A DNA stretch of 8,377 nt, taken from positions 1 to 8,377 of the forward strand of contig JAQVQJ010000051.1 in assembly GCA_028701635.1 (NCBI GenBank), given 5' to 3'. Below, in pieces: positions 1 through 8,377 of this stretch (position 1 is the stretch's first letter; every line of letters starts with the position of its first letter). The position numbers were made by a program, and so were the translations under genes. Under the pieces are notes generated by a model. That model did no database searches, was not told the DNA's origin, and saw only the letters and a program-made list of their open reading frames with translations. This DNA is from Clostridia bacterium (GTDB lineage Bacteria; Bacillota_A; Clostridia; Christensenellales; UBA1242).

Positions 1-327
1 TTAATAATCTCAAATTTATGCGAGGTGTATTTTTCAATAAATATTTATCATATAATTATAACCTTTCGTTAGAATGCTTTATATTTGAACCAAATTTGAA
101 ACGGTGTGGGGGTTTTTAGACGAACTGTCGTTAGTGGCAAGCGTAAGAGAAAAATCGACTTCGGACAATTGAAACAAAAATAGTAAACCAATAACTTGAC
201 TGAATCGTGCCATAATATAAATTAGTTGACTTTGACATGTGTAGAAACATTTGTAGCTCAGGGACAGCGACCACACAGCCCGACAGATTTTTTTATTTTT
301 GGCCGACACACTTTAATATTATTAGAA
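1..327. other. Intergenic, no convincing gene
   Basis: This stretch has open frames on both strands but none that reads like a protein. The minus-strand frame at 79-309 and the first 34 codons of the plus-strand frame starting at 226 lack any recognisable family signal. The only notable sequence is the minus-strand motif GCCACTAACGA at 138-128, which recurs almost unchanged on the plus strand at 4008-4018 before the Gabija genes. Shorter minus-strand versions (CTAACGA) lie at 72-66 and 3623-3617. I see no RNA gene and no clear terminator here. Confidence 0.5.
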
Positions 328-468
328 TTGAAAAAATATTTATATATAACTTTTTTATTTTTTTCTAATTTGTGTTTAGGGCAAATAAATCTTGTTTTTA
401 ATCCCAGTTTTGAATTAATATTTAGGTGTCATAATAACCAGTCCCTCATTCCTTCAAGAAAATTCTGA
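328..468 (+). pseudogene. 5' remnant of an exported NPSFE-type protein gene
   Basis: Reading from TTG at 328, the 46 codons give a typical lipid-facing signal peptide: two lysines, a hydrophobic run with phenylalanines, and a likely signal peptidase I cut after LCLG, before QINLV. The mature start reads NLVFNPSFE and is followed by a cysteine a few residues later. Many exported or outer-membrane proteins of Bacteroidota start with NLVPNPSFE and a nearby CP, and they run to several hundred residues. Here the frame stops at 468, so only the N-terminus survives, and the expected ATG is a TTG. The 3' end overlaps, in another frame, the next decayed gene. I infer a gene relic. A very short secreted peptide is possible but less likely. 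Family resemblance is from memory of the motif, not from a search. Confidence 0.5.
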
Positions 469-748
469 ATTTATTATCAATTATACTTATAGAGAATAAT
501 CAAAATAATCGATATTCCAATGACAGTATAAAACTCTCATATTACGTAATAAACGACAGTATAATTAAAGTTTTTGTTCATATTCCAGCAGTCACTATTT
601 ATTACCCAATAACTATCCCAGTTGAAAAAAAACAAAATTATAAAACCTGGTAATTTGGGGCTGCTTATTGATAAAATTCCTTATATTTCTATTGCATTTG
701 TTGCATTTTTTTTACTTGGTCTTTTCTTTAGAAAAAAAATCATAAACT
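438..748 (+). pseudogene. Decayed small membrane-protein gene, copy A
   Basis: A plus-strand frame is open from 438 without a start codon and reads through the peptide NDSIIKVFVHIP and then YYPITIPVEK (600-629). In the A-run at 624-632 the reading moves to the frame of 622, as if one base had been gained, and continues as IIKPGNLGLLIDKIP, then a strongly hydrophobic segment (SIAFVAFFLLGLFF) and RKK, ending near 748. The coding interpretation rests on the second copy at 3342-3634, which encodes nearly the same peptides with many silent differences. The product would have been a small protein with one C-terminal membrane helix followed by positive charges. I do not recognise the family. The 3' end meets the 3' end of the helical-repeat gene on the opposite strand (stop at 740). 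Confidence 0.55.
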
Positions 749-2050
749 CATGTTATGTTGTTTTAATAAACGATACGCGCGATCACGTAATTCAGGCATT
801 ACTTCAGTATCTTTAATAAAATTTAAATTATCAATAGCAAATGCTTTAATTATTTTATTTTTTGATTCAAGTAAATTATCAATTTTATCAAAAGCAGTAA
901 TACGAATAATACTATCAGTATCTGTAAATAATGTTTTCAAAACACTTAAAACTCTATCCTGTATACTCTTATTCTTGACTAGTAAACATAAACATTCTAA
1001 TGATAATTCTTTTGCTAATGGTCGGCGAACATTTTTATTATTATCAATTAGTATTTTTTCAATAATTGAAATAATTTCCTTTTGATTATTACATCTGCAA
1101 CGTTTAGATATTAGGCAATTTTTGTTGTCTTTACATAATAATCTATAATTTCTTGAAATGAATATTTTTAAAAAAACATTATTCGTTGAAAGAATTTCTG
1201 TACATTTTTTTAATGATTCACTTCTATTAATTTCAAATAAAGCAATGTTCTCCCAAATAATATCAAGATTATTCATATCATTAGGGAAAACTTTAGAAAA
1301 ATTATCTTTAATTTGAATATATTTTTCATCAATTCTTTCTTTTTTAAAAAAAATATGTTTTTTTAACCCATTTAAAACCTCTATCAAAGGGAAGACAACA
1401 TATACTTCATCTGAATCTTTAAAATCAAGATTCTCAAGAATAAATTTTGTTTTGCTAGATGGGAGATATGATAAAGATTCAATGGCTCTACGTCTAATAT
1501 CAGTATTAGAAACGCCTTTTATATCATCTCTTAAGTTGAAAAAAACTAATTGGCTTCTTTTAAATGATAGTTGAAATAATGCAGGCAATGCTTCGGAAAG
1601 CCTTCGTTTTGTTTCATAATCAGAATTATCTGCAATTGAATTTAAAGTTTCAAAAAAATCATCTAAGGGATTTATTTTTAAACGAGCCAATTTACCACTA
1701 ATTAAAACACCTAATATATCATCAATGCGACTCTTATCAGGTTCAAGCAAGTATTTTGTTGTAAAACTAACAAGAACTGATTTATCATGCTTTTCAACAA
1801 TAGCTTTAATTATAGCTAACATTAAAAGTAGGTAAGTAGTTAATGAAGAAATAAAAGTAACAATATCAATTTTCTCTAAAATAAAAAGGAATACTATTAA
1901 AAATAGAACAATTAAAGATATTATATTGGCAAATATATCTTCAAGTAAAGAGAATTTAGTTAAAAAGTGTATTAGTTTGGTGGTTACTTTATAAAAAAGT
2001 GTTTCAATTAAATATAAACATTTTTTTATAAATTTTGTAAAAAAGCTCAT
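740..2050 (-). CDS. Membrane-anchored helical-repeat (HEAT-like) protein
   Basis: The 436-residue product has two predicted membrane helices (about 41-58 and 62-84) after a basic N-terminus. A long helical region of roughly 350 residues follows, with short amphipathic helices and HEAT-like patterns (for example around 146-160, 184-196 and 341-410, with 'D..VR...A..L' spacing). This architecture suggests a membrane-tethered protein scaffold; no enzymatic motif is visible. A cysteine cluster C306-x5-C312-x5-C318-x-C320 sits in an inter-repeat loop and could bind a metal. The ATG at 2050 overlaps the TGA of the upstream radical SAM gene (ATGA), so the two are probably translationally coupled and work together. 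The HEAT assignment is by pattern only; a more general alpha-solenoid is equally possible. The specific function is unknown. Confidence 0.75.
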   Translation of the reverse strand: MSFFTKFIKKCLYLIETLFYKVTTKLIHFLTKFSLLEDIFANIISLIVLFLIVFLFILEKIDIVTFISSLTTYLLLMLAIIKAIVEKHDKSVLVSFTTKYLLEPDKSRIDDILGVLISGKLARLKINPLDDFFETLNSIADNSDYETKRRLSEALPALFQLSFKRSQLVFFNLRDDIKGVSNTDIRRRAIESLSYLPSSKTKFILENLDFKDSDEVYVVFPLIEVLNGLKKHIFFKKERIDEKYIQIKDNFSKVFPNDMNNLDIIWENIALFEINRSESLKKCTEILSTNNVFLKIFISRNYRLLCKDNKNCLISKRCRCNNQKEIISIIEKILIDNNKNVRRPLAKELSLECLCLLVKNKSIQDRVLSVLKTLFTDTDSIIRITAFDKIDNLLESKNKIIKAFAIDNLNFIKDTEVMPELRDRAYRLLKQHNMSL

Positions 2051-3312
2051 CTAAATGTTTTTAATATTTTTAAAGATAATAGTTCTTGTTTTTGCCAATT
2101 ACCATATAAAATGCCACTATTACTAAGCTTCATTAATTCTTTTCTAACATCTTCACTTATAGGTTTAAAACCTAATTTCATAAATCTAGTTTGAGGCAAA
2201 GGAATAAAAAAATGTCCATGTATTTTAACATTTTTTCTTTTAATAGATTTAATAAAATTCATTGTAAGTCTTATATCATCAACTGTTTCACCTGGCATAC
2301 CAAAAATTAAATCAACATTAATTTTGAAATTAAAAAGCAGTGCTAATTCGATTGCTTTTTTAACATCATCAACCGTGTGTCCTCTATGTGCTGAATCTAG
2401 CAATCTTTGACTTGCTGTTTGAGCTCCAATAATAATATTATCATTGTCTACATATGTACGTAAAATTTCTAATGTGTCTTCATTAATTTGTTCAGGTCTA
2501 ACTTCTGAAGGGAAGGTGCCAAAAAATATTCGACCATTATTACCTAATATTGATCTAGCTTTTGCAAGTAAATTATCAATCGCAGCTAAATTAATCTCCT
2601 TGCCATCAATCGACCCATAAGAAAATGCATTCGGAGAAATAACCCTAAAATCTTTAAGATTTTTTTCTTTCATAAATGTGATACACTTAGCAATTGTTTC
2701 TATAGACCTATGGCGTGGAACTAAACCATGAATGTATGAATTTTGGCAAAAACTACAAGCGAAAGGACAACCCCTTGTAATTTCAATGGGTCCGTATTTA
2801 TTGTGATTTAATGATATAGGAATAGATTTATTTAAATCAACAGTAAGAGGTCTGCCAGTATCAATAATTTTTTTATTATTATTTAAAAAAACAACACCTC
2901 CAATTTTTTCAAACATAAAATTTTCATTATATGCTTTGATTATTTCTTTGAAAGTTTCTTCACCTTCATATCTAACAATTATATCAATTTTTAAATCTAA
3001 GGCGGTCTGAGGGCTTCCAGTTGGATGTGGTCCACCTGCAACTATAAGTATATTTGGAAAAAAGGTTTTAATACCTAATAGCATTTCTTGAATATCCCAA
3101 AATTGTGGTGTGGAAAATGAAATCGCAAAAATTAATTTGATGTGATTTTTTGATAAAATATTTAATTCATTAATAACATCTTTGTAATCCTTTATAAAAT
3201 ATAATTTGTATTCGGGCAAAGAAATATCAGCCTCTAATGCACCAATTAAAGCATTAAAGCTATTTTTATTTTCTCTCAAATAAAGAAATACTATACCAAT
3301 TGATTCTTTCAT
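2047..3312 (-). CDS. B12-binding domain / radical SAM protein
   Basis: The product has 421 residues. Residues 1 to about 150 form a Rossmann-like cobalamin-binding domain with the GGPHPTGSP loop (93-101) and YEGEETF (115-121), a form common in B12-radical SAM proteins. The radical SAM core follows: C182-x3-C186-x2-C189 within TRGCPFACSFC would hold the 4Fe-4S cluster. Further core signatures are IIIGAQTAS (293-301), RGH (310-312) and FGMPGET (337-343). The segments RHRSIE and RVISPNAFSYGS resemble, from memory, the MJ_1487-type B12-binding/radical SAM family, whose substrate is unknown. Such enzymes use SAM and often cobalamin for methylation or rearrangement. ATG at 3312 follows an A-rich leader on its strand (no Shine-Dalgarno), usual for Bacteroidota. 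It is first in a two-gene operon with the helical-repeat protein. No precursor peptide gene is visible nearby. Confidence 0.88.
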   Translation of the reverse strand: MKESIGIVFLYLRENKNSFNALIGALEADISLPEYKLYFIKDYKDVINELNILSKNHIKLIFAISFSTPQFWDIQEMLLGIKTFFPNILIVAGGPHPTGSPQTALDLKIDIIVRYEGEETFKEIIKAYNENFMFEKIGGVVFLNNNKKIIDTGRPLTVDLNKSIPISLNHNKYGPIEITRGCPFACSFCQNSYIHGLVPRHRSIETIAKCITFMKEKNLKDFRVISPNAFSYGSIDGKEINLAAIDNLLAKARSILGNNGRIFFGTFPSEVRPEQINEDTLEILRTYVDNDNIIIGAQTASQRLLDSAHRGHTVDDVKKAIELALLFNFKINVDLIFGMPGETVDDIRLTMNFIKSIKRKNVKIHGHFFIPLPQTRFMKLGFKPISEDVRKELMKLSNSGILYGNWQKQELLSLKILKTFR

Positions 3313-3341
3313 TTTTTAAGTTTGCAAAATTAATAAATTTA

Positions 3342-3634
3342 TTCAAACGAGTAATAAACAAATTAAGAAATGATATTATTATCAAAGAGTTTTACATTCA
3401 TTAAATTTATAAACCAATACTTATCTGAAGATACTTATATTACTCTGTTACAATTCCTGTAGAAAAAATTTTAATTATTAAACCTGAATAATGGGGACTG
3501 CTCTTTGAGAAAATTCCTTTGTTAGTTTGGCATTAATTACTTTTTTTTTAACCAGTCTTTTCTTCAATAAAATTGTATTCAAATTCTTCCATTATAATTT
3601 AATTCTCCTAAATTTGTCGTTAGTTAATTTATAA
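3342..3634 (+). pseudogene. Decayed small membrane-protein gene, copy B
   Basis: This is a second, diverged copy of the gene relic at 438-748, in the same orientation. Aligned peptides are YYSVTIPVEK (3438-3467; copy A has YYPITIPVEK), IIKPE-stop-WGLLFEKIP (copy A IIKPGNLGLLIDKIP), and after a one-base shift near 3525 LALITFFLTSLFFNK (copy A IAFVAFFLLGLFFRK). The upstream part NDIIIKEF (from 3369) matches NDSIIKVF, and the 9-mer gtaataaac is shared at 3351 and 546. Copy B is broken by in-frame stops (TAA at 3402 and 3489-3491) plus the frameshift, all different from the lesion in copy A. It starts about 30 bases upstream of the divergent radical SAM start, so the promoter of that operon must lie within or beside it. 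The function of the lost protein is unknown. Confidence 0.55.
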
Positions 3635-3689
3635 AAAACGATAATATGTGTTTGTAATCGTATAAAAAAGATTTAAAAACAATAATTTT

Positions 3690-3863
3690 ATGAGTTACAT
3701 ACAACAATATTTCTGCAAAGCACCTCAAGACCTTGCATATCAAGATATTACTGATTTTTTTGCAAATGAAAGAGAGGAGTCAGATAAAATTGAATTTAAA
3801 TCTTATCATTCAACTGGTAAAAATGATAAATTGCCTAAGCAATTATTAGAACACGTATTATAG
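3690..3863 (+). pseudogene. Truncated AlbA_2 (Schlafen-like) domain gene
   Basis: A 57-codon frame from ATG at 3690 to TAG at 3861-3863, preceded by an A-rich leader. Residues about 14-40 read LAYQDITDFFANEREESDKIEFKSY when taken in pieces: an acidic, helical lead-in, then the ES/SD..IEFKS core. This matches the beginning of AlbA_2 domains, found at the N-terminus of putative DNA-binding or ATP-binding proteins of several hundred residues that often sit in defence islands. The family would continue into the helix and the GG-containing strand of the fold. Here the frame ends after QLLEHVL, and no continuation is found in any frame of 3864-4010. I therefore call it a 5' gene relic. An expressed 57-residue fragment cannot be excluded. 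Confidence 0.55.
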
Positions 3864-4010
3864 ACCTTCCCTACAAAAATAAAAAAAACTAACCCGAATG
3901 ACACAGCATCGCTTTTGGATAGAAAGAAAATTTAGATAATTTAGTAAGGATATGGCACGAAAATACTTTCTGACAAAGGTTTACAGGAGCTCGTTGACAG
4001 TACGCCAGCC

Positions 4011-4146
4011 ACTAACAAGCTGCGGGCTTCATCGGCAGGGAAATCTTTCTTTGAAAATTTTGGTGGTTAATAGGAAACTTTTATATCTTTGTGGGTAGGT
4101 TGGTGGGTAAAGTGCCGCCGAAAGCCCAGCAGCCGATCGTTGTGTT
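4011..4146. repeat. Long imperfect inverted repeat
   Basis: The left arm 4015-4036 pairs imperfectly with the right arm 4114-4143. ACAA pairs with TTGT, GCTGcGGGCTT (4019-4029) pairs with AAGCCCagCAGC (4122-4133, two-base bulge), and CGGC (4033-4036) pairs with GCCG (4117-4120). About 75-80 bases lie between the arms. It begins with the motif GCCACTAACAA (4008-4018), which also occurs inverted at 138-128. Size and shape recall integron attC sites, but the outer bases do not fit the RYYYAAC/GTTRRRY consensus. Confidence 0.45.
4060..4091 (+). promoter_or_regulatory. Candidate Bacteroidota-type promoter for gajAB
   Basis: TATCTTTG at 4084-4091 fits the -7 consensus TAnnTTTG of the Bacteroidota primary sigma factor, and a TTG at 4060-4062 lies 21 bases upstream, a fitting spacing for the -33 element. 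Transcription would begin near 4097, leaving an mRNA leader of about 200 nt that contains the 4205-4264 hairpin before the gajA ATG. The call is by consensus only. Confidence 0.45.
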
Positions 4147-4204
4147 TCATGCTAAGAAAGACAGTGCAACAAGTTAATGACTAAACAATAATAGCCGACG
4201 CACA

Positions 4205-4264
4205 TTTGGCACATTTGCAAGCTCAAACTCACTAGCTGACGCTTCAGCTTGCAAAAGAGCCAAA
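4205..4264 (+). repeat. Hairpin H1 upstream of gajA
   Basis: The arms 4205-4223 and 4246-4264 are complementary at 17 of 19 positions around a 22-nt loop. The two mismatches are both A opposite A, separated by one C-G pair, giving an internal loop bordered by GCACATT (4209-4215) and AAAGAGC (4254-4260). The same two strings, in the same arrangement and 53 rather than 52 nt end to end, form the hairpin at 8055-8113 after gajB. It ends 32 bases before the gajA ATG. It could be an mRNA leader structure, a recombination site or the end of a mobile element; the sequence alone does not decide. Confidence 0.7.
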
Positions 4265-4296
4265 TTTTTGCTGACGCACCCAAAATACAGATTATA

Positions 4297-6375
4297 ATGT
4301 ACATAACAGAAATAGAAATAATTGACTTCAGGAATTTTCAATCAACAAAAATTGAAAATGGTGAAGTGAAAGGATGCAACATAAAATTTGTAGATGGAGT
4401 TAATGTGATTATTGGTCATAATAATTCGGGGAAATCAAATCTAATAAAAGCCCTGGATTTAGTTTTGAATTTCGGAGGAAGCAAGAAACTTGAAATTGAT
4501 GATTTCAATAAGAACAAGACAATTGCACAATTAATTAATGAACCTCCAAAAGTGAAAATTAGTGTGACTTTTTCTGAATCAGAAAATGAAGAAGAGTTTT
4601 CTGATGATTTAGTTACAGCTTCAACGTGGTTAACTAAATTGAATTCTCCATATACAGCAAAACTCACTTACATCTTTTATCTTCCACAAAAGGAACATGA
4701 GGACTATAAAAAAGAGATGCAATTGATAGCATCTGATGATATAGAAAATTATTGGTTGGCAATAAAACACCAATTTCTTAGAAAATATACAAGCAAAATT
4801 TATAGCGGGAATTCAGAATATAAAAATGTTGTTGACTCTGAAACCAGTAAGAAAATAGACTTTCAATTCTTAGATGCAATAAGAGATGTAAATAGGGATT
4901 TATTTACAGGTAGAAATACATTATTACGTGAAGTAATTGATTTCTTCATTGATTACGACATCAAGAGCAATGCAAAATTAGAAAGAAAAGAACAACAAAA
5001 ACAAATCGCTCAAAAACGAAAGGATTTTTCAGAAGAGGCAAAAAAGCTTATTAAACAACTACAGTCAAGAATGGAGTCAGGAAAAAAAGAAATGCTTTCG
5101 TATGCTAGTGATACAGGAGCTTCTTTTGAAAAATCAGAACCTGATTTTGAAGGACATATCTTAGATACAGAACTTTATTCAGCATTAAAACTGATTGTAA
5201 AGCATGAAACTGGAATAACAATCCCTGCTACACATAATGGATTAGGCTATAATAACCTCATTTATATTTCTCTTCTTTTGGCAAAAATGCAAAAAGATGC
5301 TTCAGGCGATTATTTAGGTAGCAATTCCAAGACTTTTCCAATTTTAGTAATTGAAGAACCAGAAGCTCATTTGCATCCAGCTATGCAATATAAATTTCTG
5401 AAGTTTTTATATGAAAATAAAAAAGAAAAGGCAAAGCAAATATTTATAACAACTCATTCACCTAACATAACTGCAGCTGTAAATTTAGATAACATTATTT
5501 GTTTTAATAGAGATAACAAAGGAAAACTAAATATAGCCTATTTAGGTAACGCTTTTGCCGAAAGTGAAACGGACTCAAAAGCTTATGTTCAAAGATTCTT
5601 AGATGCTACAAAATCGGATATGTTGTTCTCAAAAAAAGTAGTTCTCGTCGAAGGAATTACAGAACAGTTATTGTTGCCTATATTTGCAAATTATGAAAAC
5701 AAAAGCTTTGAAGATGAGCATGTTTCAGTGATTAATATTGGAGGCAGATATTTCAAGCACTTTTTAAAACTTTTTGATTCAGAAAAACCAAATACAATCA
5801 ATAAGAAAATAGCATGCATTACAGATTTGGACCCTGTATATACTATTGATGACGATACAAAAAACGAAAAGTGCTATCCTTTCGAAAAACGTGATGATTT
5901 GGTTGAATTTAAAGAATGTTCAAATTCTTTAGTTGATGATTATGCAGAATCAAAGCATGCAAATATTAGAAGTTTCTCACAACAAAAGGGTGTTGGGAAA
6001 ACATTTGAGTATGCACTTGCTTTTGAAAATCTTCAAACAGAAATTTTTATCGGAGAAACCATCGCCAATAAGGATGAGTTGAAGAAACTAGTTGAAGCAT
6101 ACAATAAAGGAAATACCCTAGACGAACTATTAGCCATTTTTAGTTCAAGAGGTTCTGAGAATAGTAGAATCAAAAATGCAATAAGTGCATCTAGTATTGA
6201 TACTGAAGAAAGAAAGAAACATCTTATTGCTTCAAGGTATTTAAACTCACTATCAAAGGGTGAGAATGCTTATGAACTTGCACAAATATTACAAGCTAAT
6301 CTTGAAAAAGATAATCCTGTTGATTTTAAGACTCCAATCTATATAAAACAAGCAATTAACTGGATATGCGAATAA
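4297..6375 (+). CDS. gajA: Gabija protein GajA: OLD-family ATPase/TOPRIM nuclease
   Basis: The product is 692 residues counted from ATG 4297. The N-terminal half is an SMC/ABC-like ATPase: start ITEIEIIDFRNF, Walker A G40-HNNSG-K46-S47, a charged probable coiled coil (about 227-265), signature region GLGYNN (315-320), Walker B ILVIEEPEAHLHP (349-361) and the switch THSP (386-389). A TOPRIM nuclease domain follows: VVLVEGITE (448-456) with the catalytic-type glutamate, INIGG (479-483), and the metal-binding D510-L-D512. A helical C-terminal part of about 130 residues ends it. In studied Gabija systems GajA nicks DNA and assembles with GajB during phage defence. At 692 residues it is longer than the roughly 580 of the Bacillus cereus protein. 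An in-frame TTG at 4249 would add 16 residues but lies inside hairpin H1, so the ATG is preferred. It overlaps gajB by 10 bases. Confidence 0.9.
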   Translation: MYITEIEIIDFRNFQSTKIENGEVKGCNIKFVDGVNVIIGHNNSGKSNLIKALDLVLNFGGSKKLEIDDFNKNKTIAQLINEPPKVKISVTFSESENEEEFSDDLVTASTWLTKLNSPYTAKLTYIFYLPQKEHEDYKKEMQLIASDDIENYWLAIKHQFLRKYTSKIYSGNSEYKNVVDSETSKKIDFQFLDAIRDVNRDLFTGRNTLLREVIDFFIDYDIKSNAKLERKEQQKQIAQKRKDFSEEAKKLIKQLQSRMESGKKEMLSYASDTGASFEKSEPDFEGHILDTELYSALKLIVKHETGITIPATHNGLGYNNLIYISLLLAKMQKDASGDYLGSNSKTFPILVIEEPEAHLHPAMQYKFLKFLYENKKEKAKQIFITTHSPNITAAVNLDNIICFNRDNKGKLNIAYLGNAFAESETDSKAYVQRFLDATKSDMLFSKKVVLVEGITEQLLLPIFANYENKSFEDEHVSVINIGGRYFKHFLKLFDSEKPNTINKKIACITDLDPVYTIDDDTKNEKCYPFEKRDDLVEFKECSNSLVDDYAESKHANIRSFSQQKGVGKTFEYALAFENLQTEIFIGETIANKDELKKLVEAYNKGNTLDELLAIFSSRGSENSRIKNAISASSIDTEERKKHLIASRYLNSLSKGENAYELAQILQANLEKDNPVDFKTPIYIKQAINWICE

Positions 6376-8051
6376 CGGCTAATACTAACATAGATATTGA
6401 ACAACATTTTAAAGTTATTGCTGGCCCAGGGGCAGGTAAAACAAAATTTCTTGTTAATCATGTTAAAAATGTACTTGCTAACTCTTGTAGATTATCCAGA
6501 AACCGGAAAATTGCCTGTATAACATATACCAATGTTGGGGTTGATACGCTTATTAGAAGAGTAGAAGATGAGAAAGACCATCTTGAAATAAGTACAATAC
6601 ACAGTTTTCTTTTTGTCCATGTTGTAAAACCTTACCTCTTTTTAATTAAAGAGAAATTTAAACTTGACCCAGCTAAGATTGACAATCCTTTCGAGCATAT
6701 TTTTTCTAATGGCTATTTTAGTCAGACTGATTTACCCAGAAGATATGTTACTGAAAATGACATGAAGGGAATTTATTGGGAAATTTCAGGTAATGAATGT
6801 AATCTTAGGATTAAAAACAAAAACAATATCTATCATAATAGTTTAATCAAGTATAAAACATTCTTCTGGGAAAAAGGGATAATACATTATGATGATATTC
6901 TTGCATTTGCATGGGAAATAATCAATAAAGATTCAAATGTATTAAGAATCTTAAGAGCAAAATTCCCCTATTTCTTCATTGATGAGTTTCAGGATACAAG
7001 TCCAATTCAAACTAAGATTGTAAAAGAAATTGCAGCGCAAGAAACTATTGTAGGAGTAATTGGTGATACTGCACAATCAATATATAGTTTTCAAGGGGCA
7101 AGTATGCAACAGTTTATTGATTTTACTTTACCTTCTTTAAGAATATATCAAATTGAGGATAATTGGAGAAGTACGAATCAAATAATAAATGTGTTAAAAT
7201 CAATACGTACAGATTTAGAACAAAAAAGTCCCGAAAATAAAAACGGGAATTTTCCAAAAATTCTTGTTGGCAATAGTATTCAAGCATTGGAGTATTGCGA
7301 CACTGTATTTGGTAAAGATAAAGTTGTGACTCTTTCATATATGGTTCCAACCGCAAATGCAATGAGAAAAAGAATTGATGTAGATAATCCTGCAAATATT
7401 TTAGTAGAAGAACATTTTGCAGTAGACTCAAATAGTGAGAGGAAAAGATTAATAATTTCTTCAATCAAAGCAATCGAATTCGCACGTCAACAACTTTTTT
7501 CAGATGCGATTAAAGAATTAAGTTATCATTTTAGGAAACAAGATGATTTCAAAGGTCAAAAAATCTCACTCACATTTTTAAAGGATTCGCTAAATAAATA
7601 CAGCTTTATTTCTAATATGTCCTTATGGGATTATTATCAAAATTTAAGTATTAATCCATTCATTACTATATCAAAGATTAGAGAAGGAAAAAATGGTAGT
7701 ATGACTGATATTGAAAGTTTTTATAAACAAACTACTTATAAGGATATCGCATTGTCGATAAGGTTGTTGAAAGATGAAAGTATACATCGTACAATACATA
7801 AAGCTAAAGGTGATGAATTCGATAATGTTTTAGTCGTTGTAAAAGGCAGATTCGGTAGGCAATATGTTGAAAGTCGTGATTTAGCATTTCTTTTAACTCC
7901 TGATTTAATAGCAAATGAAGACCATAGAGTCAATTATGTCGCATGCAGTCGGGCAAAAGAAAACTTATTGATAAATGTCCCTAAGTTGTCTGATGGTTCT
8001 AAGCAGTTACTGGCTGATAAGTTTGAAATTATTGAGATACCCAACCCATAG
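6366..8051 (+). CDS. gajB: Gabija protein GajB: UvrD-like superfamily 1 helicase
   Basis: The product has 561 residues and the full set of SF1A helicase motifs: I AGPGAGKT (19-26), Ia ITYTN (52-56), Ib STIHSF (76-81), II FIDEFQD (204-210), III VIGDTAQSIYSFQGA (231-245), IV NWRST (266-270), V TIHKAKGDEFDNV (476-488) and VI VNYVACSRAKENL (522-534). In Gabija, GajB is the helicase/NTPase partner that is thought to sense DNA ends or hydrolyse nucleotides and so release GajA from inhibition by ATP. The protein is shorter than UvrD or Rep (about 670-720) but longer than the roughly 494 residues of the B. cereus GajB. ATG 6366 overlaps the gajA TAA (6373-6375), which supports coupled translation and a joint complex. 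All catalytic motifs look intact, so the system appears functional. Confidence 0.9.
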   Translation: MRITANTNIDIEQHFKVIAGPGAGKTKFLVNHVKNVLANSCRLSRNRKIACITYTNVGVDTLIRRVEDEKDHLEISTIHSFLFVHVVKPYLFLIKEKFKLDPAKIDNPFEHIFSNGYFSQTDLPRRYVTENDMKGIYWEISGNECNLRIKNKNNIYHNSLIKYKTFFWEKGIIHYDDILAFAWEIINKDSNVLRILRAKFPYFFIDEFQDTSPIQTKIVKEIAAQETIVGVIGDTAQSIYSFQGASMQQFIDFTLPSLRIYQIEDNWRSTNQIINVLKSIRTDLEQKSPENKNGNFPKILVGNSIQALEYCDTVFGKDKVVTLSYMVPTANAMRKRIDVDNPANILVEEHFAVDSNSERKRLIISSIKAIEFARQQLFSDAIKELSYHFRKQDDFKGQKISLTFLKDSLNKYSFISNMSLWDYYQNLSINPFITISKIREGKNGSMTDIESFYKQTTYKDIALSIRLLKDESIHRTIHKAKGDEFDNVLVVVKGRFGRQYVESRDLAFLLTPDLIANEDHRVNYVACSRAKENLLINVPKLSDGSKQLLADKFEIIEIPNP

Positions 8052-8054
8052 AAC

Positions 8055-8113
8055 CATGCACATTAAGCAAACACACATATCAACCTCACGACCCAATTTG
8101 CTTAAAGAGCATG
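8055..8113 (+). repeat. Hairpin H2 downstream of gajB
   Basis: The arms 8055-8070 and 8098-8113 pair at 14 of 16 positions around a 27-nt loop, starting 4 nt after the gajB stop. The two mismatches are A opposite A with a C-G pair between them, exactly as in hairpin H1 before gajA. GCACATT (8058-8064) and AAAGAGC (8104-8110) are shared with H1, while the outer and inner stem sequences differ yet stay paired. There is no T-run after it, so it is not a standard intrinsic terminator. Confidence 0.7.
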
Positions 8114-8226
8114 TCTCTCCAACGCTTGGATTGGCTGATAGTATAAAGCACGAAATCACAACACGGTATATAAAACATTTGGCGCAAAGTGCTAATTTTA
8201 AGGGTGGTACATTTAATAAACATCGC

Positions 8227-8265
8227 AACGGTTTGATAGGGAATCGCTTTTAAATTCCAAACGTT
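8227..8265. other. Imperfect hairpin before the last gene
   Basis: AACgGTTTG (8227-8235) can pair with CAAACGTT (8258-8265) with one bulged G, with a further GAAT/ATTC pairing inside (8241-8244 with 8254-8257). A shorter CCCAT/ATGGG hairpin follows at 8273-8287. Either might end gajAB transcription or belong to the same family of intergenic structures. Support is only from base pairing. The remainder of 8114-8320 shows no convincing gene. Confidence 0.3.
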
Positions 8266-8320
8266 TCATATACCCATCCGTTATGGGCTATAAAAAGTGA
8301 CTACGTAAATAATTGAAATT

Positions 8321-8377
8321 ATGAAAAAACTAATACTTTTCTTGACTTTTATACTGACAACATTTTTTGCAGATGCA
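8321..8377 (+). CDS. Start of an exported protein (cut by window end)
   Basis: ATG at 8321 opens a frame of 19 codons up to the window edge. It reads as a signal peptide: MKK, then a hydrophobic run LILFLTFILTTFFADA with an A-x-A-like end. An A-rich sequence without Shine-Dalgarno precedes it. The product is therefore probably exported by the Sec pathway; nothing of the mature protein is visible. It lies 269 bases beyond gajB with hairpins between, so it probably has its own promoter and is not part of the Gabija operon. Confidence 0.6.
   Translation, partial: MKKLILFLTFILTTFFADA

Follow-up and report, generated by a model that had tools for sequence, protein, structure and literature searches.

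A Gabija operon that looks like the cargo of an integron-like gene cassette carrying two hairpins

We analysed a stretch of 8,377 nucleotides from a Clostridia bacterium (GCA_028701635.1, contig JAQVQJ010000051.1, positions 1 to 8,377; hereafter the window), in which a Gabija operon, gajAB, is bracketed by two similar hairpins, H1 and H2. Judged from its sequence, this operon looks as if it were carried by a gene cassette belonging to an integron-like array, of a kind that is common in Bacteroidota. Imperfect palindromes with AAC/GTT cores were found at cassette borders, including both sides of gajAB, and we consider it likely that gajAB is integron-like cassette cargo and that H1 and H2 stand at the base of an extended attC-like site that cassettes of operon size possess, a role that we infer.

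The gajAB operon lies between hairpins and attC-like sites

The L-type hairpin H1 (4205..4264) and the R-type hairpin H2 (8055..8113), both on the plus strand like all features of this cassette, have equal orientation and a common internal loop, GCACATT/AAAGAGC, with two A.A mismatches flanking a C-G pair. Their top-strand folds gave z-scores of -4.0 and -5.2 (0 of 200 shuffles equally good), and their bottom-strand folds -5.1 for H1 (0/200 as good) and -3.4 for H2 (1/200). Since the loop pattern occurs twice in the window and none of 200 window shuffles had two occurrences, the shared loop is not expected by chance. The covariance model built from the hairpin family (R1) matched H1 with 58.4 bits and H2 with 52.2 bits, both being rows of that model. 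The preliminary description of this DNA had reported the matching hairpins and their common loop, and the folds and shuffles agree with it on that point; the larger palindromes directly outside the hairpins it had overlooked. No match to Rfam 15 covariance models was found in the window up to E 1, and a known structured RNA family was rejected on that result.

A second model, R2, which describes the attC-like sites, matched the window at 4000-4152 and 8146-8293 and thus on both sides of gajAB. The left site (4014..4141; AAC 4014-4016, GTT 4139-4141; 39.7 bits, E 4e-6) is absent from the model rows and would belong to the preceding cassette, forming the upstream gajAB border, while the right site (8160..8282; AAC 8160-8162, GTT 8280-8282; 99.7 bits, E 1e-18, a row in the model) would be the cassette's own. 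From the left GTT core a leader (4139..4204) extends to H1, and the 14 nt behind this GTT match, as complement, the flank of the site that the cassette itself carries (own-site score 8.5, preceding-site score 3.0). Next come gajA (4297..6375; AAA_15 and OLD-like TOPRIM; ORF, PADLOC and Pfam) and gajB (6366..8051; UvrD-like helicase by PADLOC; ORF), whose stop codon ends 3 nt upstream of H2, followed by a trailer (8114..8159) from H2 to the AAC core with a terminal flank complementary to the leader. PADLOC also calls gajAB, as the operon had been named at first sight. As in other Gabija systems gajA and gajB are adjacent, with full-length profile matches, and we observed nothing unusual about them; they are simply cargo.

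The hairpins belong to a covarying family found mostly in Bacteroidota

The two hairpins had been proposed to covary under selection for a folded form, a view that gained ground when more copies were collected. With the loop pattern, a scan of genome contigs returned at least 120 stretches, mostly from Bacteroidota; by record title, together with the usual placement of some genera, nine of the 120 are from elsewhere, namely two Ignavibacteriales, a Chlorobiota, a KSB1, a Desulfobulbaceae, three Bacillota/Clostridia and one other bacterium. Nine stretches came from a viral scan with a stricter loop pattern, and four of these (L001, L007, L008 and L009) fold with the same loop and have outer stems that differ yet remain paired, L009 being shifted by one base. 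We aligned 144 of 145 listed sequences (alignment A1, L041 dropped) and found both sides changed at 13 of 17 pairs, in rows that had been selected for pairing; because of this preselection, the fair test of covariation is the set of 131 distinct copies collected by the pattern only. These have 51 different left arms, and at least four of the five outer pairs are formed in 116 of them, whereas 500 right-arm shuffles reached 30 on average and 42 at most. The pair at the loop edge covaries as well (G-C to A-T in 10 of the 144 rows). On this evidence the hairpins are a real covarying family, mostly of Bacteroidota, that extends far beyond H1 and H2.

The covariance search of Bacteroidota genomes that the preliminary description had suggested did return further copies: R1 matched in at least 43 of 198 genomes (24 candidates scored per genome) and R2 in at least 111 (15 candidates per genome), in a sample that overlaps with the genomes used for model building (e.g. 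G003). All 43 R1-positive genomes fall within the 111 R2-positive ones (P ~2e-13, lists compared by eye). Among 101 Bacillota genomes, R1 found no hairpin and R2 matched in a single genome, 241 bases from a contig end.

Sites and hairpins are organised in arrays of cassettes

At junctions between an R hairpin and the next L hairpin lies a long imperfect palindrome that begins near AACA and finishes near CGTT. A length of about 125 nt prevails among these attC-like sites, with 164 or 192 nt in some. In the site alignment (A3), from which 9 of 50 sites were dropped for odd arms, including the left site of the window, the remaining 41 have a 21-bp stem with few bulges (5' arm 2, 3' arm 10), and the unpaired nucleotides adjoining the core number 2 versus 5. 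Wobble counts of 27 versus 62 favour the bottom strand, with base composition as a confounder. A strict arm search around 147 hairpins found a site only downstream of 46, only upstream of 24, on both sides of none and near none of the other 77; likewise, when the covariance models were used, none of 144 hairpins was flanked by sites on either side at once within 600 nt. An R2 scan of 96 loci (121 matches) was kept out of all counts.

Hairpins and sites cluster in arrays, and within each of 42 segments all matches lie on one strand. One carrier is the cultured environmental species Draconibacterium orientale, which has arrays at 0.90-0.94 and 4.63-4.67 Mb. Between consecutive sites we delimited 138 cassettes, of which 93 have no hairpin, 36 have two (framed cassettes), eight have one and one has more. 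Hairpin-less cassettes have a median length of 1112 bp and two-hairpin cassettes of 5845 bp, and at least 2 kb is reached by 36/36 of the latter versus 23/93 of the former, although an undetected site would inflate the apparent length of a cassette.

For a cassette that travels as a circle opened at GTT, one expects complementarity between its start and the flank of its own site, and none with that of the preceding one. This is the pattern that we observed: the start was complementary (score of at least 7) to the own flank in 103 of the 138 cassettes and to the preceding flank in five, with mean scores of 7.88 and 3.96, compared with 3.74 for random pairing (300 shuffles, maximum 3.95). Without segment L210 the numbers were 78/109 versus 4/109, and by mean the own site was superior in 25 of 28 segments. 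Such own-site complementarity is the mark of integron-type cassettes.

The borders of the apparently mobile unit could be followed at one chromosomal locus in three genomes. L218, L219 and L220 have common flanking genes and a recombinase gene in common, with differing cassettes. L219 and L220 match through ATAAGCAAGTT and then diverge, and on the right they share CCGTTATAA and the sequence beyond it. Homology breaks at GTT, and the hairpin core starts 40 nt (L219) and 80 nt (L220) further in. In L218 the L219 cassette stands behind another site, and the shared block begins at the GTT of that site; the cassette is 98.6% identical over 4.9 kb in the two loci and ends at the AAC core. Across 29 framed cassettes the distance from the upstream core to that of the L hairpin is 35-243 nt, and the distance from the R hairpin core to the downstream one is 44-198 nt. 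By these comparisons the mobile unit has its borders at the AAC/GTT cores of the attC-like sites, outside the hairpins. Of the early proposal that the hairpins bound a mobile gajAB module, the mobile-looking module stands; the hairpins as its borders do not, nor did the boundaries fall at the hairpins when loci were compared, the check that had been suggested. The attC site, named early on as an analogue, proved an apt comparison, in that attC-like sites flank the hairpins.

Two further arrays deserve mention. In L190 the framed module at 9998-13493 resembles a fusion of a hairpin-less and a framed cassette of another genome (L216, 14807-18416) with the intervening site missing, and in L121 a ParD/ParE-like toxin-antitoxin pair (6467-7010), by sequence appearance, stands behind an attC-like site.

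Leader, trailer and hairpins could form one composite site

In 29 framed modules with close sites on both sides, the lengths of leader and trailer are correlated (Pearson 0.97, Spearman 0.81). In the 15 that were long enough for a stem test, leader and trailer pair beyond the core (35.4 versus 20.4 at random, maximum 25.5), with up to 20 perfect base pairs, and in composite folds the own leader beat swapped leaders in 28 of the 29 framed cassettes. Given this pairing, a circular cassette could fold its H2, trailer, attC, leader and H1 into one composite, which measured 368-616 nt in three examples. Hairpin-less cassettes were tested for such extended end pairing and had none (13.8 versus 13.4), so that it was rejected as a trait of theirs. 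From the end pairing of framed cassettes and its absence in hairpin-less ones, we take H1 and H2 to be probable parts of an extended recombination site of operon-sized cassettes.

The sequences show that each cassette extends from a GTT core to its own attC-like palindrome of about 125 bp, and that operon-sized cassettes have two further elements, an L hairpin that follows the leader and an R hairpin shortly after the final stop codon. In the circular cassette, H2-trailer-attC-leader-H1 then make up a long foldable site with two hairpins at its base. For the recombination itself we propose the following. The IntI-like tyrosine recombinase of the array heads may cut the GTT core of the folded site, and the cassette may be excised and inserted as a circle. 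The long stem and the base hairpins might aid end-finding or folding of large cassettes, an aid that short ones would not need, and the loop motif of the hairpins might serve as a recognition feature for the recombinase or for a partner protein. More speculatively, and with considerable doubt on our part, the composite site could be a cargo-independent device with which this integron-like system converts entire operons, especially those directed against phages, into cassettes, being attached shortly after the final stop codon and immediately ahead of the first gene. If true, this would settle for this lineage how new cassettes come into being, so far an open question.

Array heads often carry an IntI-like recombinase

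Of 20 genomes selected because they have hairpins, 15 contain an IntI-like recombinase gene at most 5 kb from a site or hairpin, on the same strand in 13 and on the opposite strand in two (positions compared by eye, with G017 counted on the strength of a weakly matching site). Twelve aligned recombinases have invariant R230, H319, R322 and H345 and a nearly invariant Y354, and the array-head proteins finish in SPLD-like residues. Most of them are extended at the N-terminus by one or two stretches bearing a WS..LR.W.IP motif, and no Pfam family matched this extra domain above cut-off. They are also without a stretch that is found in the IntI of G010, and positions 180-239 of TIGR02249 remained unmatched; we read the missing stretch as the IntI-specific insert or domain. 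An additional domain specific to integron integrases is described in part of PMC9668308, and it was not found in the array-head recombinases.

Five scanned recombinases reached 194-212 bits with TIGR02249, below the cut-off of 265, and 204-234 bits with NF040815 (cut-off 220, two over); the sole TIGR02249 match above cut-off was another gene, in G010. In a tree that leaves out G002 and the short G001 copy at 1651 kb, the array-head recombinases group with others of their kind and are separated (100/99) from seven XerC/D-like proteins that these genomes also encode, and the one true IntI sits on a long branch beside them, with unsure placement. The predicted structure (pLDDT 79.8, pTM 0.54) had V. 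cholerae IntI4 (2a3v, E 4e-16) as its best fold match, closely followed by XerA (5hxy, 8e-16). Relatives at E 1e-30 numbered 6523 among 8000 candidates scored, some of them carrying the NCBI name 'site-specific tyrosine recombinase/integron integrase'. First cassettes often start at a GTT that fits their own site, and CTATAAnnnA precedes this GTT in 4 of 28 listed.

Recombinase genes also turned up in unusual forms. At several places between 913 kb and 3.82 Mb, G002 contains nearly identical copies of a short recombinase-like gene that has one in-frame TAG. In L231 (G001, 1380300-1381800) the end of a recombinase is identical to the array-head copy at 118 kb and the rest differs, as if by gene conversion.

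Framed cassettes are rich in restriction-modification genes

The largest ORF of 60 of the 72 framed modules and 89 proteins from hairpin-less cassettes were scanned. Among the 60 framed proteins, the commonest matches were ResIII (15), Eco57I (9), N6_Mtase (7) and SWI2_SNF2 (5), and PADLOC mad2 matched ten; some cargo is not related to defence, such as AcrB-type transporters (2/60). Among the 89, no PADLOC family had more than two matches, those being mostly methyltransferases, the commonest Pfam family had four, and PemK was found in two. By these profile matches the two-hairpin cassettes are rich in restriction-modification genes, in a comparison biased by the larger size of the framed proteins (49,378 residues in 60 versus 25,238 in 89), which favours matches there. 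Modules with like L and R elements (at least 80%) had unrelated cargo in 87 pairs and related cargo in 11, and among pairs with related cargo L or R was below 65% in 43 of 169. The window itself and L206 (in the region of L121) illustrate this, with like L/R elements around gajAB in the one and around a 134-aa and a 1287-aa protein in the other. One framed operon, in G001 (2600292-2606108), is transcribed wholly against the hairpin and array direction.

Alternative explanations and points against the composite site

The hairpins could instead work at the RNA level, H1 in the 5' leader of the cassette's transcript and H2 shortly after the last stop codon, where they would serve large operons as terminators, stabilisers or regulators without any part in recombination, with leader and trailer pairing in the mRNA. 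Coding runs mostly in the hairpin direction in 70 of the 72 framed modules, and the stop codon lies a median of 20 nt from the R-hairpin core (n=71; at most 30 nt in 52), both of which would suit this account and the former of which counts to that extent against a recombination site. However, the orientation bias is also present in hairpin-less cassettes (84/91), and since the stop codon lies a median of 21 nt before the AAC core there (n=88), its nearness is a general cassette trait. RNA helices usually have an excess of G.U pairs, and the top strand of the hairpins has none (GT/TG 15 versus AC/CA 21 of 2448 cells), for which reason a top-strand RNA helix was rejected. Moreover, one module runs wholly and another mostly in the opposite direction, and no Rfam family matched the window. 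We regard an RNA role as rather unlikely.

The preliminary description had also considered IS200/IS605-type ends, and the hairpins might be the ends of such a single-stranded transposon, or of a palindrome-associated (PATE-like) one, nested in an integron-like cassette and served in trans by a Y1 transposase. The equal orientation of L and R elements and the differing cargo between like L/R pairs are as would be expected of it, but the homology break at the GTT core lies outside the hairpin, hairpins with a nearby site have it on one side only, and all 43 hairpin-positive genomes contain attC-like sites. Transposon ends, rejected by the border test (GTT break, one locus in three genomes), are very improbable. 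Equally hard to believe is that the composite sites are inherited remnants whose inactive borders are kept only via homologous recombination between arrays: the middle of the recombinase gene is lost in L219 and L220, some other recombinase matches contain stop codons, and attC bodies may differ behind one cassette, yet unlike sequences retain pair-specific complementarity, and several array heads have an open recombinase gene.

For gajAB as cassette cargo with H1 and H2 at the base of an extended attC-like site, several observations are unfavourable, besides the direction of the cargo and the possible inflation of cassette lengths. Hairpins are not required for mobility as such, because 93 of 138 cassettes have none, and the cassette that precedes gajAB, 3.9 kb long, has no R1 hairpin match despite its size. 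The window's own composite has a stem of merely 7 bp beyond the core. No recombinase is present in the window, as first stated, and none was seen near the array in five of the 20 genomes (G007, G011, G015, G018 and G019); by sequence profile, the array-head recombinase matched the archaeal Xer proteins 4a8e and 5hxy first and 2a3v third. The attC bodies behind the cassette shared by L218 and L219 differ (behind 9831 and 9954, array-oriented strand), which a plain integron cassette does not predict. Finally, L and R subtypes match moderately (Mantel r 0.34, permuted maximum 0.19). Strictly paired L/R subtypes were rejected on this moderate match.

Comparison with integrons and other known systems

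With integrons, as described in parts of PMC2727003 and PMC9024848, these arrays share cassettes in one orientation, AAC/GTT cores, an R'' complementary to the start of its own cassette, a tyrosine recombinase near the array (15/20 genomes) and some toxin-antitoxin cargo (PemK). They differ in that the array recombinase is without the presumed IntI insert and mostly has an extra N-terminal domain. In attC sites, extrahelical bases and an unpaired central spacer favour the bottom strand (part of PMC2727003); in the array sites, with a 21-bp stem and few bulges, an extrahelical base is hard to discern. A further difference is the existence of cassettes of operon size that have what we take for an extended site, with a hairpin on either side of its base. 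The fold of the array-head recombinase is most like that of V. cholerae IntI4, by a narrow margin over XerA, and unlike such IntI- and XerA-type recombinases the array-head proteins are below the TIGR02249 cut-off and carry the extra domain.

From IS200/IS605 and palindrome-associated elements, two like, equally oriented hairpins around cargo are familiar; the borders here lie outside the hairpins, at attC-like sites.

According to part of PMC9024848, a standard integron finder reported only lone integrases in Bacteroidetes proper, and then one complete integron. Among the matches listed in our search, whose range lay within journal literature other than preprints and most subscription papers, no publication dealt by title or abstract start with such Bacteroidota arrays. 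Our finding suggests that this phylum, from which the integron finder reported almost none, harbours a large integron-like system of cassettes. Its arrays carry multi-gene operons, many of them for defence, marked by a recognisable two-hairpin frame. This frame could serve as a sequence handle for finding such operons regardless of their genes, and it makes the movement of large cassettes and the origin of cassettes testable questions.

The neighbouring cassette

Upstream of gajAB we propose a preceding cassette without hairpins (130..4138, plus strand), which would start at the GTT at 130, the window's best match to the flank of the site at 4014 (score 9.0, next best 7.0). Its two genes (ORFs at 740-2050 and 2047-3312) are on the minus strand, opposite to the array. 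The gene at 2047-3312 appears radical-SAM-like by eye and matches PADLOC PDC-M51A. A 57-nt direct repeat, 75% identical, at 626-682 and 3463-3519 brackets the two minus-strand genes.

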